Positions 3,604 through 30,979 of a stretch of DNA of 64,000 nucleotides are shown here, piece by piece (position 1 is the stretch's first letter; every line of letters starts with the position of its first letter). Origin of the DNA: Serratia marcescens (GTDB lineage: Bacteria; Pseudomonadota; Gammaproteobacteria; Enterobacterales; Enterobacteriaceae); the NCBI RefSeq assembly GCF_001902635.1, contig NZ_MJAO01000004.1:124001-188000 (forward strand), in the 5' to 3' direction. The notes beneath the pieces were generated by a model, which made no database searches, had not been told where the DNA came from, and worked only from the letters and a program-made list of their open reading frames with translations. The position numbers and the translations under genes were made by a program.

Positions 3604-3945
3604 TTACTTCTTCATCATCGCCTTCAGATTGGCGAACGGGTTGTGGGTGGCGACGCCGATATCCTTCTGGGCATCTTCACCGGCCACCACCGTCGATCCG
3701 TATTGATCGGCCTCGGTGTACTTCGAGTGCTCATGGTCGTGGCAATACAGGCACAGCATTTCCCAGTTGCTGCCGTCTTCCGGGTTGTTGCTGTGATCGT
3801 GATCGATATGGTGCACCGTCAACTCGCGCAGGTTGGAATAGACGAACTCGCGCGAGCAACGCCCGCACACCCAGGGGAACAGTTTCAGCGCTTTTTCGCG
3901 GTAGCCGGTTTCCAGCTTCGCATAGTTTTTGGGGATGTAGGCCAT
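3604..3945 (-). CDS. yajD: HNH endonuclease-family protein YajD
   Basis: The 113-residue product matches E. coli YajD almost throughout as I recall it. Two CxxC pairs (CGRCS and CLYC) and the HNH core (LTVHHIDHDHSNNPEDGSNW, with HDHEHS later) form a zinc-binding beta-beta-alpha-metal fold. The family has HNH nuclease features but no firmly established substrate that I can name. It is transcribed from its own upstream region toward the par iteron block. Confidence 0.93.
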   Translation of the reverse strand: MAYIPKNYAKLETGYREKALKLFPWVCGRCSREFVYSNLRELTVHHIDHDHSNNPEDGSNWEMLCLYCHDHEHSKYTEADQYGSTVVAGEDAQKDIGVATHNPFANLKAMMKK

Positions 3946-18451: not shown

Positions 18452-18709
18452 TTATTGATAGATTACTGCGGTGCCGTGCAGCTGATTGTTACCGCCTGCG
18501 CCGATGATACGGAAGGATTTGGCGCCCGCCTGATCGGCTTTGGCAGCCAGGCTGCTTTCCAGCGAGGTCAGATCGGAGGCTCCGCTGACGGTGACGACCC
18601 CCACTTTCTGTTGATTGGCCGGTTGGCTGTTGACCAAGTCGGCGGCGAAGCTGCCGAAGGAAACGCTGGCCAGAGTGAGCGCTGCTAAGGTTAATTTTAA
18701 GTTTTTCAT
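18452..18709 (-). CDS. YdgH/BhsA/McbA-like periplasmic peptide (DUF1471), copy 2
   Basis: The 85-residue precursor has a signal peptide ending SFGSFA with the mature start at ADLVNSQ, and the same DUF1471 domain as its neighbour. It reads VVTVSGASDLTSLE and ends LHGTAVIYQ. It is a tandem paralogue of the 18002-18259 gene. It lies divergent to a TetR regulator across a 175-base promoter region holding two inverted TTAACGATC motifs, so TetR control is likely. A role in envelope stress or biofilm formation is inferred from the family. Confidence 0.92.
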   Translation of the reverse strand: MKNLKLTLAALTLASVSFGSFAADLVNSQPANQQKVGVVTVSGASDLTSLESSLAAKADQAGAKSFRIIGAGGNNQLHGTAVIYQ

Positions 18710-25457: not shown

Positions 25458-25985
25458 ATGACTACCGCGTTGTTGATTATCGATGTGCAGGAAGGATTGT
25501 TTACGCCGCCGCCGGCGGATGCCGCAGGCACCGTCGCGCGCATTAATCAGCTGAGCGAGCGCGCCCGCCAGGCGGGCGTGCCGGTGATCGTGATTCAGCA
25601 CCACACGCCGGACGACGAGCTGCGGCACGGCAGCGCCGCCTGGCAAGTGCTCGCGGCGCTGGAGGTGGCGCCGGGCGACCACCGGGTGGATAAAACCACC
25701 CCGGACTCGTTCCTGCGCACCTCGCTCGGTGCGCTACTGATCGCCAACGGCGTATCGCAGCTGATTATCTGCGGCTATTCCACGCCATTTTGCATCGATA
25801 CCACGGTGCGCAGCGCGGCGGCGCACGGCTATCCGGTGACGCTGGCGGCGGATGCTCACACCTGCCACGACCAGCCCTATGCCGACGGTCTGCTGATCCG
25901 CACCCACCATAACGAGACGTTGTCGAATATCGAAAGCTTCGGCGTGCCGATCCGCGCCGTGCCGGCGGCGGACATCGTGTTCTGA
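25458..25985 (+). CDS. isochorismatase-like cysteine hydrolase
   Basis: The 175-residue enzyme has the catalytic triad of the family. The aspartate is in LLIIDVQEG, the lysine in VDKTTPDSF and the cysteine in GYSTPFCIDTTVRSA, with a conserved cis-peptide region before it. Relatives are amidases such as nicotinamidases; the substrate is unknown. The start at 25458 follows CGGGAGCC. It stands just after the Sufu-like gene. Confidence 0.85.
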   Translation: MTTALLIIDVQEGLFTPPPADAAGTVARINQLSERARQAGVPVIVIQHHTPDDELRHGSAAWQVLAALEVAPGDHRVDKTTPDSFLRTSLGALLIANGVSQLIICGYSTPFCIDTTVRSAAAHGYPVTLAADAHTCHDQPYADGLLIRTHHNETLSNIESFGVPIRAVPAADIVF

Positions 25986-26018
25986 ATTGTCTCTCCAGAA
26001 ACCGGCGGCGGCGGGCTA

Positions 26019-26045
26019 TTGACGTGCTGCCGCTGCGGGTATACT
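26019..26045 (+). promoter_or_regulatory. likely promoter of the trpS leader
   Basis: TTGACG (26019-26024) and TATACT (26040-26045) are near-consensus -35 and -10 hexamers, but the spacer is a short 15 bases. The predicted start site would fall almost on the first leader ATG (26054), so either the leader ORF is nearly leaderless or translation uses the inner ATG at 26066. Confidence 0.55.
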
Positions 26046-26053
26046 TTGATGGC

Positions 26054-26107
26054 ATGAATATATCGATGCACTCCACCCATAATCAGTCATGGTGGCGCCT
26101 CTTCTGA
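26054..26107 (+). CDS. trpS leader peptide with tandem Trp codons
   Basis: A 17-codon frame reads MNISMHSTHNQSWWRLF and stops. Two adjacent TGG codons (26090-26095) are followed by an Arg codon, just as in trpL of the trp operon (GWWRT). An internal ATG at 26066 would give a 13-residue peptide. The frame overlaps segment 1 of a trp-type attenuator and ends in its 1:2 loop. A ribosome stalling for lack of charged Trp-tRNA would cover segment 1. Peptide and mechanism are inferred from sequence; no ribosome site is obvious. Confidence 0.75.
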   Translation: MNISMHSTHNQSWWRLF

Positions 26108-26165
26108 GGCGGCACGAGTATTCACATCTCTTTTTAATGCCGCCGGTTTGGCGGCATTATTTTTT
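26092..26165 (+). promoter_or_regulatory. trp-type transcription attenuator upstream of trpS
   Basis: Four segments can be drawn. Segment 1 (GTGGCGCCTC, 26092-26101) pairs with segment 2 (GAGGCGGCAC, 26106-26115) with one mismatch. The GGCGGCA of segment 2 (26108-26114) pairs with TGCCGCC (26138-26144) in segment 3. Segment 3 (AATGCCGCC, 26136-26144) pairs perfectly with segment 4 (GGCGGCATT, 26150-26158), followed by a T-run to 26165. Segment 1 overlaps the tandem Trp codons. Stalling would favour 2:3 and readthrough into trpS. Confidence 0.8.
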
Positions 26166-26175
26166 GTGGCGTTGA

Positions 26176-27216
<1,041 letters not shown>

Positions 27217-27333: not shown

Positions 27334-28167
27334 ATGGCTCAGGCACTGTTAAAATTGGCGCAGCACGACTTTCCAGGGCAGCACGCCGCCGCATCCCGCA
27401 AAGTGTTATCGGTGAAGGGATTAGGCAAAGCTTATAAAGCGCAGCAGCGCGTGCTGGACGACATCAATTTCGATCTGCACGCCGGCGAATTCGTGGCGGT
27501 GATCGGCCGTTCCGGCGCCGGCAAGTCCACGCTGCTGCACACCCTGAACGGCACCATTCCTTCCAGCTGCGGCGAGATGCTGCACTTCGAAGACGATGGC
27601 GTGGCGCAGGATATCGCCCAGCTTGCCGGCCGCCAGATGCGCCAGTGGCGCGCGCGCTGCGGCATGATCTTCCAGGACTTCTGCCTGGTGCCGCGGCTGG
27701 ACGTGATGACCAACGTGCTGTTGGGCCGCCTGAGCCACACCTCCACCCTGAAATCCTTCTTCAAACTGTTCGATGATGCCGACCGCGCTCGCGCCATCGA
27801 GCTGTTGCAGTGGCTCAACATGCTGCCGCATGCGCTGCAGCGTGCCGAGAACCTCTCCGGCGGCCAGATGCAGCGCGTCGCTATCTGCCGCGCGCTGATG
27901 CAAAACCCGCAAATCCTGCTGGCCGATGAGCCGGTCGCGTCGCTCGACCCGAAAAACACCCGCCGCATCATGGACGCGCTGCAGAAAATCAGCGAAGACG
28001 GCATTGCGGTGATGGTGAACCTGCACTCGGTCGAACTGGTGAAAGAGTATTGCTCGCGGGTGATCGGCATCGCCCACGGAAAGATCGTGTTTGACGGGCA
28101 TCCTTCGCAACTGAACGAACGGATCCTGCACCAGCTGTATGGCGAGGAAGCCAATCAGATCCATTGA
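27334..28167 (+). CDS. phnC: phosphonate ABC transporter ATPase PhnC
   Basis: The 277-residue ATPase has Walker [10 protein letters not shown], the signature LSGGQMQR, Walker [14 protein letters not shown] and an H-loop histidine (NLHSVEL). The PhnC family drives uptake of phosphonates or related phosphorus compounds. It is the first gene of a phnC-phnD-permease-permease operon. Roughly 25 residues precede the ABC domain, slightly more than usual. No C-P lyase genes are present in the window, so the imported compound is not known. Confidence 0.9.
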
Positions 28168-28208
28168 AGCACTTTTGACCTTTACCCTTTACACACAAGG
28201 CATACCTA

Positions 28209-29141
28209 ATGAAAAAAGTATTGAGTCTGACCACCTTGATGGCCGGCGCGATGATGGTATTTAATGCTGCCGCAGCGGATGCGCCGAAAGAGCTGAACCT
28301 GGGCATTCTCGGCGGCCAGAACGCCACCCAGCAGATCGGTGACAACCAGTGCGTGAAGCAATTTCTGGACAAAGAGCTGAATGTCGACACCAAACTGCGC
28401 AATTCGTCCGACTATTCCGGCGTGATCCAGGGCCTGCTGGGCGGCAAGATCGACCTGGTGCTGAGCATGTCGCCGTCGTCGTTCGCCTCGGTCTATATCA
28501 AGGATCCGAAAGCGGTGGATATCGTCGGCATCGCGGTTGATGACGTCGACCAGTCACGCGGCTACCACTCGGTGGTGGTGGTGAAGGCCGGCAGCCCATA
28601 CCAGAAGCTGGAAGATCTGAAGGGCAAGGCCATCGGCTTCGCCGATCCGGATTCCACCTCCGGCTTCCTGATCCCGAACCAGGCGTTTAAAAAGCTGTTC
28701 GGCGGCACGGTCGACAACAAATACAACAACACCTTCTCCAGCGTCACCTTCTCCGGCGGCCACGAGCAGGACATTCTCGGCGTGCTGAACGGCCAGTTTG
28801 AAGGCGCGGTGACCTGGGCGTCGATGATCGGCGACTACAACACCGGCTACACCAGCGGCGCGTTCACCCGCATGATCCGTATGGATCACCCGGACCTGAT
28901 GAAACAGATCCGCATCATCTGGCAGTCGCCGCTGATCCCGAACGGCCCGATCCTGGTAAGCAACTCGCTGCCGGCTGACTTCAAGGCCAAAGTGGTCACC
29001 GCCATCAAGAAGCTGGATAAAGACGATCACCAGTGCTTTATCAAAGCGATGGGCGGCAAGCAGCACATCGGCGACACCACCCTGGCGGAATACCAGAACA
29101 TCATCGATATGAAGCGCGAGCTGACTAAAGGCGACCGTTAA
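28209..29141 (+). CDS. phnD: phosphonate-type ABC binding protein PhnD
   Basis: The 310-residue periplasmic protein has a signal peptide (MKKVLSLTTLMAGAMMVFNAAAA) and the PhnD fold: LNLGILGGQNATQQ, then LRNSSDYSGVIQGLLGGKIDL, GKAIGFADPDSTSGFLIP and the NGPILVSNSLP region. PhnD proteins bind phosphonates, phosphite or similar esters. It follows phnC by 41 bases. A strong hairpin after it may lower expression of the permeases relative to the binding protein. Confidence 0.9.
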   Translation: MKKVLSLTTLMAGAMMVFNAAAADAPKELNLGILGGQNATQQIGDNQCVKQFLDKELNVDTKLRNSSDYSGVIQGLLGGKIDLVLSMSPSSFASVYIKDPKAVDIVGIAVDDVDQSRGYHSVVVVKAGSPYQKLEDLKGKAIGFADPDSTSGFLIPNQAFKKLFGGTVDNKYNNTFSSVTFSGGHEQDILGVLNGQFEGAVTWASMIGDYNTGYTSGAFTRMIRMDHPDLMKQIRIIWQSPLIPNGPILVSNSLPADFKAKVVTAIKKLDKDDHQCFIKAMGGKQHIGDTTLAEYQNIIDMKRELTKGDR

Positions 29142-29168
29142 TTCCCGGCTGCCTCGGCCGTCCGAATG

Positions 29169-29194
29169 AAGGGGTTCAGCGTGCTGAACCCCTT
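29169..29194 (+). terminator. hairpin between phnD and the first permease gene
   Basis: A perfect 11-bp inverted repeat, AAGGGGTTCAG and CTGAACCCCTT with loop CGTG, lies 27 bases after the phnD stop. It has only a weak U-tract (TTGTT). It is best read as an attenuating or mRNA-stabilising hairpin. Its presence argues that the permease starts downstream at 29220. Confidence 0.6.
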
Positions 29195-29219
29195 GTTCCA
29201 TAAAGATGGAAGACCTCTT

Positions 29220-30083
29220 TTGAATACCGATTTCGCACACTATTACCAACGGATCCGCAGCAAGCAAAAGCGCGAAGCGCTGCTGTGGTCGCTCGGGCTG
29301 GTGGTGCTGTACCTGGGCGCCGGCAACCTCGCCGAGTTCAATCTGCACACCGTCTGGGTGTCTATTCCGCACTTCTTCGACTACCTGGCCGAAACCATTC
29401 CGACGCTGCACTGGCCTCTGCTGTTCGCCGACGGGCGCACCGAAGGCTCGCTGGCCTATTGGGGCTACCGCCTGAATATCCAGCTGCCGCTGATCTGGGA
29501 AACCCTGCAGCTGGCGCTGGCGGCGACCATTTTCTCGGTGCTGGTGGCGACCGTGCTGGCGTTTCTGGCGGCCGGCAACACCTATACCCCGGCCTCGGTG
29601 CGGCTGGCGATCCGCACGCTGGTGGCATTCTTGCGCACCATGCCGGAGCTGGCGTGGGCGGTGATGTTCGTGATGGCGTTCGGCATCGGCGCCATTCCCG
29701 GCTTCCTGGCGCTGGCGCTGCACACCATCGGCAGCCTGACCAAGCTGTTCTACGAATCGATCGAAACCGCTTCCAACAAACCGGTGCGCGGGCTGGCGGC
29801 CTGCGGCGCCACGCCGCTGCAGCGCATGCGTTTCGGCCTGTGGCCGCAGGTGAAGCCGGTGTTTCTTTCCTACAGCTTCATGCGACTGGAGATCAACTTC
29901 CGCCAGTCGACCATCTTGGGGCTGGTGGGGGCGGGCGGCATCGGCCAGGAGCTGATGACCAACATTAAACTCGACCGCTACGATCAGGTCAGCATGACGC
30001 TACTGCTGATCATCGTGGTGGTTTCCGTGCTCGACTATGTGTCGGGCGAGCTGCGCAAGCGCGTGGTGGAGGGGGCAAAATGA
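29220..30083 (+). CDS. phnE: phosphonate-type ABC permease (PhnE family), first
   Basis: The 287-residue inner-membrane permease has six or so helices. The EAA loop reads ETASNKPVRGLAACGATPLQRMRFGLWPQ, followed by the conserved GLVGAGGIGQEL. I place the start at TTG 29220, which has GGAAGA 7 bases upstream. An in-frame ATG at 29166 would put an 11-bp hairpin inside the gene and has no ribosome site. The gene overlaps the second permease by 4 bases, so the two likely form a heterodimeric channel. Confidence 0.85.
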   Translation: MNTDFAHYYQRIRSKQKREALLWSLGLVVLYLGAGNLAEFNLHTVWVSIPHFFDYLAETIPTLHWPLLFADGRTEGSLAYWGYRLNIQLPLIWETLQLALAATIFSVLVATVLAFLAAGNTYTPASVRLAIRTLVAFLRTMPELAWAVMFVMAFGIGAIPGFLALALHTIGSLTKLFYESIETASNKPVRGLAACGATPLQRMRFGLWPQVKPVFLSYSFMRLEINFRQSTILGLVGAGGIGQELMTNIKLDRYDQVSMTLLLIIVVVSVLDYVSGELRKRVVEGAK

Positions 30084-30979
30084 TAGCGGGCACTCCGGCT
30101 TCGGCGGAAACGCTGCGCCAATTGAAACAGCAGCATCCGGCGATCTTCGCGCAGCAGGGGCGCTACCTGCGTACCGTCGGCCTGATCGCGCTGGCAATCG
30201 TGCTGTACTACGTGTTCTTCTTCCTGGTCTTCGGCATTACCTGGCCGCAGTTTATCAACGGCTGCCAGCAGCTGGGGCGCTATTTCCTGCGCATGTTCGT
30301 CTGGCATGACTTCGTCAACTGGCCGTTCATGTACTACTTCCAGCAGATCGGCATCACCATCGCCATCGTGTTCGCCGGCACTATTACCGCGTCGCTGATC
30401 GCGCTGCCACTGTCGTTCTTCGCCGCGCGCAACGTGATGTCGACGCCGTTGCTGCGGCCGATCTCGGTGGTGGTGCGCCGTTTGCTGGACGTGCTGCGCG
30501 GCATCGACATGGCGATCTGGGGGCTGATCTTCGTGCGCGCCGTCGGCATGGGGCCGCTGGCCGGGGTGCTGGCGATCGTGATGCAGGACGTCGGGCTGCT
30601 GGGCAAACTGTACGCCGAAGGGCATGAGGCGGTGGACAAGTCCCCCAGCCGCGGCCTGACGGCGGTGGGCGCCAACGGGTTGCAGAAGCACCGCTACGGC
30701 ATCTTCACCCAGTCGTTCCCCACCTTCCTGGCGCTCAGCCTGTACCAGATCGAATCCAACACCCGCTCTGCGGCGGTGCTGGGCTTCGTCGGCGCCGGCG
30801 GCATCGGCCTGGTGTACGCGGAGAACATGCGGCTGTGGAACTGGGACGTGGTGATGTTCATCACCCTGATCCTGGTGGTGGTGGTGATGATCATGGATAA
30901 GATCTCGTCGTTGCTGCGCAACAAGTACATCATCGGCGAAGACATCCCGCTGTATCAGCAAAAAAGCCAAATCGATTGA
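30080..30979 (+). CDS. phnE: phosphonate-type ABC permease (PhnE family), second
   Basis: The 299-residue permease has a similar layout to the preceding gene: an EAA region (KSPSRGLTAVGANGLQKHRYGIFTQSFP) and LGFVGAGGIGLVYAENMRL. Its ATG overlaps the previous stop (ATGA). Two different PhnE-type subunits in one operon are common in phosphonate and phosphite transporters. The operon ends here, about 50 bases before an ERIC element. Confidence 0.88.
   Translation: MIAGTPASAETLRQLKQQHPAIFAQQGRYLRTVGLIALAIVLYYVFFFLVFGITWPQFINGCQQLGRYFLRMFVWHDFVNWPFMYYFQQIGITIAIVFAGTITASLIALPLSFFAARNVMSTPLLRPISVVVRRLLDVLRGIDMAIWGLIFVRAVGMGPLAGVLAIVMQDVGLLGKLYAEGHEAVDKSPSRGLTAVGANGLQKHRYGIFTQSFPTFLALSLYQIESNTRSAAVLGFVGAGGIGLVYAENMRLWNWDVVMFITLILVVVVMIMDKISSLLRNKYIIGEDIPLYQQKSQID

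Follow-up and report, generated by a model that had tools for sequence, protein, structure and literature searches.

A candidate tryptophan-codon attenuator preceding an auxiliary tryptophanyl-tRNA synthetase gene in Serratia marcescens

Our analysis of the region upstream of trpS2, an auxiliary tryptophanyl-tRNA synthetase (TrpRS) gene of Serratia marcescens, leads us to propose that this gene is under ribosome-mediated attenuation that responds to charged tRNA-Trp and most likely acts at two levels; we put the probability of this reading at roughly two in three. A fuller version, in which we place slightly less than even confidence, describes a six-segment attenuator. Here a leaderless Trp leader peptide would decide both termination and exposure of the ribosome-binding site through a single hub, segment 3, for which segments 2, 4 and 5 compete; element and trpS2 would travel together among Proteobacteria, also on plasmids, serving the host as a ready-made rescue should the housekeeping TrpRS fail. 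If this is true, enterobacteria as common as Serratia and Salmonella have put the classic logic of the trp attenuator in charge of a spare synthetase and added a translational gate that the terminator hairpin itself operates; the element then amounts to a short, portable sensor of uncharged tRNA-Trp. The ability of bacteria to survive loss or poisoning of TrpRS also becomes a testable question.

The leader ORF and its alternative pairings

The window analyzed is a 64,000-nucleotide stretch of S. marcescens DNA, and the promoter, the leader segments and trpS2 all lie on its plus strand. Direct reading of the sequence reveals a leader ORF of 17 codons (MNISMHSTHNQSWWRLF) at 26054-26107, with its ATG at 26054, its stop codon at 26105-26107 and tandem Trp codons, TGG TGG, at 26090-26095, just as the original prediction had described. 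The encoded peptide, probably translated from a leaderless transcript, ends in Trp-Trp-Arg-Leu-Phe. Segment 1 (26092-26101, GTGGCGCCTC) overlaps the Trp codons, and segment 2 (26106-26115, GAGGCGGCAC) can pair either with segment 1 or with segment 3 (26135-26144), the hub that is complementary to segments 2, 4 and 5. Segment 4 (26150-26159) forms the terminator stem with segment 3 and runs directly into TTTTTT (26160-26165), identified by a terminator scan as the U-tract of an intrinsic terminator. The 1:2 pairing is matched at 9 of 10 positions, with one G.G mismatch, and GGCGGCA of segment 2 (26108-26114) is exactly complementary to TGCCGCC of segment 3 (26138-26144). The terminator stem comprises 10 bp (26135-26144 with 26150-26159) followed by the six T, and the trpS2 ATG at 26209 follows the T run after 43 nt. 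The overlap of segment 1 with the TGG codons, the exact 2:3 complementarity and the 43-base spacing had therefore been read correctly; the claim of a perfect 9-bp terminator followed by T residues was right about the terminator and the T run but not about the length of the stem. The terminator scan gave two sites, both inside the 3:4 hairpin, compared with 0.3 in shuffled sequence. It is on these features, namely Trp codons near the end of the leader ORF, mutually exclusive 1:2, 2:3 and 3:4 pairings and, by pattern, a terminator, that we class the window element as an attenuator. A T-box was rejected as an alternative form of control: no Rfam T-box was found in the window at gathering score, nor was there one among the eight Rfam matches that 25950-26250 gave at E up to 5.

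The pairings were compared with dinucleotide shuffles, both in the window and in 33 diverse leaders (mutual similarity ratio <0.85). None of 200 shuffles of the window leader was as stable as its 1:2 hairpin, and the same hairpin stood above shuffles (p<0.05) in 29 of the 33 leaders. The 2:3 pairing was above shuffles in the window (p=0.015) and, at p<0.05, in 16 of the 33. Stem 3:4 was 98.5% paired across the 30 enterobacterial leaders, Serratia excluded, from which we built covariance model A1, and its 26 double-change cells were reached by 0 of 500 shuffles. By two covariation measures that are less prone to relatedness, it did not stand out in these leaders: its 3 pairs with double change were reached by 207 of 500 shuffles, and its further pair types by 103 of 500. 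The 1:2 helix showed no double changes in the A1 set, its paired letters differ between lineages, and its register shifts between Serratia and other enterobacteria. In five loci (L115, L126, L138, L140 and L141) no stop codon interrupts the leader ORF between segments 1 and 2, and its reading frame continues across segment 2.

A putative promoter lies just upstream. Its -35 element, TTGACG (26019-26024), is followed either after 15 nt by TATACT (26040-26045), the best-scoring -10 candidate in the window, 8 nt before the leader ATG, or after 17 nt by TACTTT (26042-26047), 6 nt before it; a consensus scan for sigma-70 promoters found none at the window leader. Across the 33 diverse leaders, the mean -10 score (3.33, where 500 simple shuffles reach 2.71 at most) peaks with the hexamer ending 6 nt before the leader ATG, a position from which transcription would be expected to start on the leader AUG. 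Counting against this, single leaders scatter, with no more than 18 of the 33 having their best -10 hexamer 6-8 nt ahead of the ATG. SD-like letters precede 5 of the 33 leaders and, by reading, are mostly part of the -10. The earlier suggestion of a short or absent 5' leader thus holds as a tendency of the family rather than of each member, and in that sense the leader message is probably leaderless. One exception to the pattern is a Proteus record (L155), in which a GTG leader start stands behind a plausible SD (AAGGAAAG). At the Salmonella locus (L163), the Rfam sRNA isrQ, itself from Salmonella, matches positions 3664-3825 on the minus strand, opposite to trpS2; this match spans the promoter region of the trpS2 leader, and the 5' end of isrQ overlaps the first bases of the leader ORF (ATG about 3822).

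A predicted gate at the trpS2 start

The inducer is likely to be uncharged tRNA-Trp, which would accumulate when Trp is short or the housekeeping TrpRS is blocked. On transcripts that probably start at the leader AUG, a ribosome supplied with plentiful Trp-tRNA would pass both UGG codons and stop; 1:2 and 3:4 would form, transcription would terminate, and those transcripts that read through would have their trpS2 SD and AUG masked by pairing with segment 5. When Trp-tRNA is short, the ribosome would instead stall on the UGG codons and cover segment 1, so that 2:3 would form and the terminator be lost. The opened segment 3, loop and segment 4 would then capture the emerging segment 5, so that the SD and AUG stay accessible.

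Segment 5 (26164-26183) has two complementarities that bear on this model. In the predicted fold, 26164-26180 pairs with the SD/AUG stretch, segment 6 (26196-26212), which holds the trpS2 SD (AGGAGC, 26197-26202) and start codon, while CCGGCGG at 26177-26183 is complementary to CCGCCGG at 26140-26146, in segment 3 and the loop. Over the leaders compared, segment 5 is likewise complementary to the end of segment 3 and the terminator loop, and often to the start of segment 4, and this duplex with the hairpin exceeds shuffles (p<0.05) in 48 of 51 leaders. Folding of the 51 leaders pairs the SD and the AUG with mean probabilities of 0.78 and 0.71; counting against a gate, just 4 of them lie above shuffles for the SD pairing probability on its own.

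The covariation evidence for such a gate is mixed. In the 30 enterobacterial leaders, 94.5% of cells are paired in the segment 5-hairpin pairing, compared with 36.6-54.5% when the register is slid, and 79.3% in the segment 5-SD pairing, compared with 38.9-65.0%; the two have 10 and 23 double-change cells, respectively. For both, the percentage paired, the double-change cells and the covariation score lie above 500 of 500 shuffles, and the percentage paired and the covariation score also lie above every slid version, although one slide of the segment 5-hairpin pairing has 11 double-change cells against 10 in the true register. The measures less prone to relatedness behave differently in the same leaders: pairs with double change were reached by 274 of 500 shuffles for segment 5-hairpin and 320 for segment 5-SD, and further pair types by 496 and 46, respectively.

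The cost of opening the SD and AUG was calculated for the 33 diverse leaders, with 40 shuffles of each. With 3:4 formed, opening costs 8.4 kcal/mol compared with 6.0 in shuffles (Wilcoxon 2.6e-6; p<0.05 individually in 8 of 33), and with 3:4 barred it costs 5.7 compared with 6.0 kcal/mol. The drop on barring 3:4 is 2.7, against -0.06 in shuffles (2.2e-5), and reaches p<0.05 in 18 of the 33; for the window leader it is 3.0 (p 0.03), while sequestration of the window SD by itself is not unusual compared with shuffles (p 0.33). Against a gate, the switch has the wrong sign in four of the 33 leaders (L115, L138, L151 and L156). The 33 include L151, whose hairpin was mis-assigned by the script, and L027, whose hairpin is doubtful. 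When 3:4 is barred in RNA that ends before the SD, segment 5 forms 14.0 bp with the hairpin region compared with 8.9 in shuffles (p<0.05 in 17 of 33 leaders). In the window leader this capture amounts to 15.9 compared with 7.7 bp, reached by 0 of 60 shuffles, and L027 shows none.

In a larger set of 71 leaders, barring 3:4 eased opening by >1 kcal/mol in 47, hindered it in 11 and made little difference in 13, and SD-segment 5 pairing fell by >0.15 in only 34; several Serratia leaders were closed in either state (L007-L009, L011, L013, L014, L094, L097 and L102). Strict enforcement of 2:3 made SD opening no easier on average (8.2 compared with 8.3 kcal/mol), with opening easier by >1 kcal/mol in 23 of 51 leaders and harder in 16 of 51. 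A strict domino, in which enforced 2:3 would free segment 4 and so open the SD, is therefore not generally supported by the energies, implying that any gate must act through invasion of 2:3 by segment 5 or through co-transcriptional capture. Overall, segment 5 suggests a second, translational gate, a suggestion that the shuffle controls support and that some relatives do not fit.

The relative weight of the two outputs is open to other interpretations. U-tracts are weak or absent in many relatives, and with so many lineages poorly supplied, termination cannot be the sole shared output. One could therefore suppose that the element was a translational attenuator in origin, with the SD gate as its general output and the terminator added in Serratia and some other lineages. 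Vibrio, Photobacterium, Agrobacterium and Paraburkholderia, along with a clade comprising L118, L121, L129 and L136, have weak or missing U-tracts and keep segment 5 and the SD stem, as that history would have it. A trade-off between U-tract strength and the size of the translational switch was looked for as well, and the two proved uncorrelated (rho -0.17, p 0.35), which tells against such an origin; we regard it as unlikely, though a serious competitor.

We give rather less credence to plain trp-type transcription attenuation, in which the SD stem and the segment 5 complementarity would have arisen incidentally from G+C-rich sequence or from older duplications. The window does have a strong terminator, and this simpler explanation would also account for the failure of enforced 2:3 to ease mean SD opening, for the Serratia SD stems that stay closed even with 3:4 barred, and for the more robust covariation measures of segment 5, which are not above shuffles. 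It is harder to reconcile with a segment 5 that beats its own shuffles in both roles, in pairings that far exceed their slid versions, and that is kept by relatives with poor U-tracts.

It is improbable, finally, that the terminated leader RNA acts in trans on trpS2 mRNA or on other targets, with segment 5 as the target site. Such an RNA would hold a stretch complementary to segment 5, and the leaderless trpL RNA of S. meliloti is described as acting in trans (PMC7298713); pairing in cis should nevertheless be favored. We continue to prefer an attenuator that works in cis, most likely at both levels.

Conservation and distribution of the leader

The leader accompanies trpS2 closely among the relatives of S. 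marcescens. At genus level, 22 of 30 genomes have trpS2 (E<=1e-100), and all 22 have the leader; at family level, trpS2 occurs in 41 of 295 genomes (E<=1e-90), with the leader at its usual place in 40 and displaced in one. A set of 74 trpS2 loci was also assembled, drawn from Serratia and other Enterobacteriaceae in addition to an Aeromonadaceae and an Oceanospirillaceae MAG; it contains some genomes twice, one copy from each of two collections. A WW leader stands at the usual place in 73. The 74th (L127, genome G089) has a leader too, but extra sequence between segment 5 and the SD puts its Trp codons 270 nt upstream, where about 120 nt is usual. This insertion, of about 150 nt, falls in the loop of the SD hairpin and leaves both arms intact. 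Loss of the TGG codons or of the stems in orthologues had been named in advance as an outcome that would speak against the original prediction. It did not arise: these loci contain a WW leader, displaced in one, and 3:4 is almost completely paired, as noted above.

Searches with model A1 gave a similar picture. The top match in the 5.26-Mb S. marcescens genome is the window leader (57.1 bits, E 3.3e-9), and the runner-up among the seven matches scores 29.7 bits (E 0.004). Of 149 family genomes, 19 had matches (E<=1e-4), in 18 cases at the trpS2 gene of a trpS2-bearing genome. The nineteenth (G073) holds a relict in which trpS2 is largely deleted and the Trp codons of the leader have been lost; this relict (L181, contig C5, about 18558-18673) serves as a natural control for constraint. 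Two genomes, G121 and G180, carry trpS2 without an A1 match, perhaps as a result of falling outside the 149-genome draw. Two weak A1 matches, at G000:C4:271469 and at a second site in G154, were rejected, with apparently unrelated genes downstream; the one in G154, weaker than the first match there, precedes an apparent transporter gene and was taken as chance.

Like-built leaders also precede trpS2 at Vibrio, Photobacterium, Salinivibrio, Aeromonas and Proteus loci, and at loci of Burkholderia, Paraburkholderia, Variovorax, Agrobacterium and Methylocystis, so that leader and gene together span the gamma-, beta- and alphaproteobacteria. The original prediction had mentioned neither this breadth, nor the downstream stretch able to mask the SD and AUG, nor the precedent of TrpRS attenuation in Streptomyces. 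The association has clear limits. The 369 class genomes drawn yielded trpS2 matches (E<=1e-90) only in the S. marcescens genome itself and at L130, which has no WW leader upstream of the gene. Among the best 80 of 359 trpS2-related loci, 18 have the leader: 12 from Serratia, the Aeromonadaceae and the Oceanospirillaceae MAG, Kluyvera, and three Burkholderiaceae (L025, L027 and L033). No leader was accepted at the other 62, which include Enterococcus, lactobacilli, Cupriavidus, Caballeronia and MAGs. WW leaders were likewise not found at the Cupriavidus, Caballeronia and Firmicutes loci, or in Acinetobacter (L157), Rhizobium (L158) and a Streptomyces plasmid (L162). Five of these Firmicutes loci carry what looks like a T-box motif. 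WW-containing ORFs in Alkalibacterium (L041 and L047) were rejected as leaders, being longer and hydrophobic.

Four loci (L143-L146) place trpS2 and its leader on plasmid records, from Salmonella (8.1 kb), E. coli and Klebsiella, and at two E. coli plasmid-record loci the pair lies near insertion sequences. Mobility cannot be read from a plasmid or phage label alone, since some records so labeled have the size of a chromosome or are clearly bacterial contigs.

An explanation by chance alone, in which a small ORF happens to hold two Trp codons next to a commonplace terminator, draws on the general frequency of small ORFs and is scarcely credible given that the A1 whole-genome search singles out the window leader, that the leader is conserved over three classes of Proteobacteria, and that the Trp codons are lost in the genome in which trpS2 is broken.

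The auxiliary enzyme and known systems

The gene downstream, trpS2 (26209-27216), encodes a second, TrpRS II-like enzyme of 335 aa. TrpS2 matches TIGR00233 with 230 bits (cut-off 177), and its best solved relative is the Deinococcus TrpRS II (PDB 2a4m, E 1.5e-122), in agreement with the original assignment to a divergent TrpRS class. Another TrpRS, 31% identical to TrpS2, is encoded on a different contig of the S. marcescens genome and, with its GAQPSG motif, reads like the ordinary enterobacterial enzyme. We call TrpS2 an auxiliary TrpRS of the TrpRS II type on these two grounds, its closeness to the Deinococcus enzyme and its coexistence with a second TrpRS. The Gln of the housekeeping GAQPSG is replaced by Arg in TrpS2, at a position that we take to matter for indolmycin; this substitution is only a lead toward indolmycin resistance.

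TrpS2 may serve as a backup TrpRS, and transposon observations in Salmonella fit that role. One study reports that Salmonella trpS tolerates transposons, narrowly missing the authors' threshold in one strain, and gives the authors' suggestion that trpS2, absent from E. coli, may be the explanation (PMC3487940). Other papers list a 2-fold rise of Salmonella trpS2 in biofilm together with trp genes (PMC2805695), place STM4508 in a group co-regulated with the SPI-2 system (PMC2639726), and name as poisons of TrpRS both indolmycin (PMC6804068) and the HipA2 kinase of Caulobacter (PMC8545095). Deinococcus TrpRS II, the closest solved structure to TrpS2, is linked to nitric oxide synthase (PMC9437257). 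In the S. marcescens window, trpS2 is followed at 27334-30979 by ABC transporter genes (an ATPase, a binding protein and two permeases) that give the impression, by sequence, of phosphonate uptake.

The E. coli trp leader works by 1:2/2:3/3:4 logic, with tandem Trp codons and an intrinsic terminator. The trpS2 leader shares all of these with trp operon leaders of the E. coli type; it differs in controlling a synthetase, in a start that is probably SD-less and in its additional segments 5 and 6. The Rfam Trp_leader model (RF00513) scores 25 bits at the trpS2 leader, below the cut-off of 41. The trp operon leader of S. marcescens itself scores 81.4 bits and is a separate locus, implying that this genome probably relies on Trp attenuation at two loci or more. 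A leaderless start like the one we propose has been described for S. meliloti trpL (rnTrpL), whose transcript begins with the leader ATG (PMC7298713); that leader controls trpE(G), and trans-acting RNA and peptide roles are reported for it there. Salmonella trpS2, STM4508 in LT2, is an orthologue with a like leader (L163). Among the listings returned by our searches of open-access papers, none describes a proteobacterial trpS2 leader, Salmonella included.

The closest parallel comes from another phylum. Vecchione and Sello reportedly described in 2010 the attenuation of an auxiliary, antibiotic-resistant TrpRS in Streptomyces, and these attenuators have in common with our proposal the ribosome-mediated control of such an enzyme. 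An attenuator of S. avermitilis trpS2 has also been predicted (PMC1262725). Because attenuation of an auxiliary TrpRS is thus already known in Streptomyces, what may be new in the Serratia leader is its probable leaderless start and the predicted second, translational gate.
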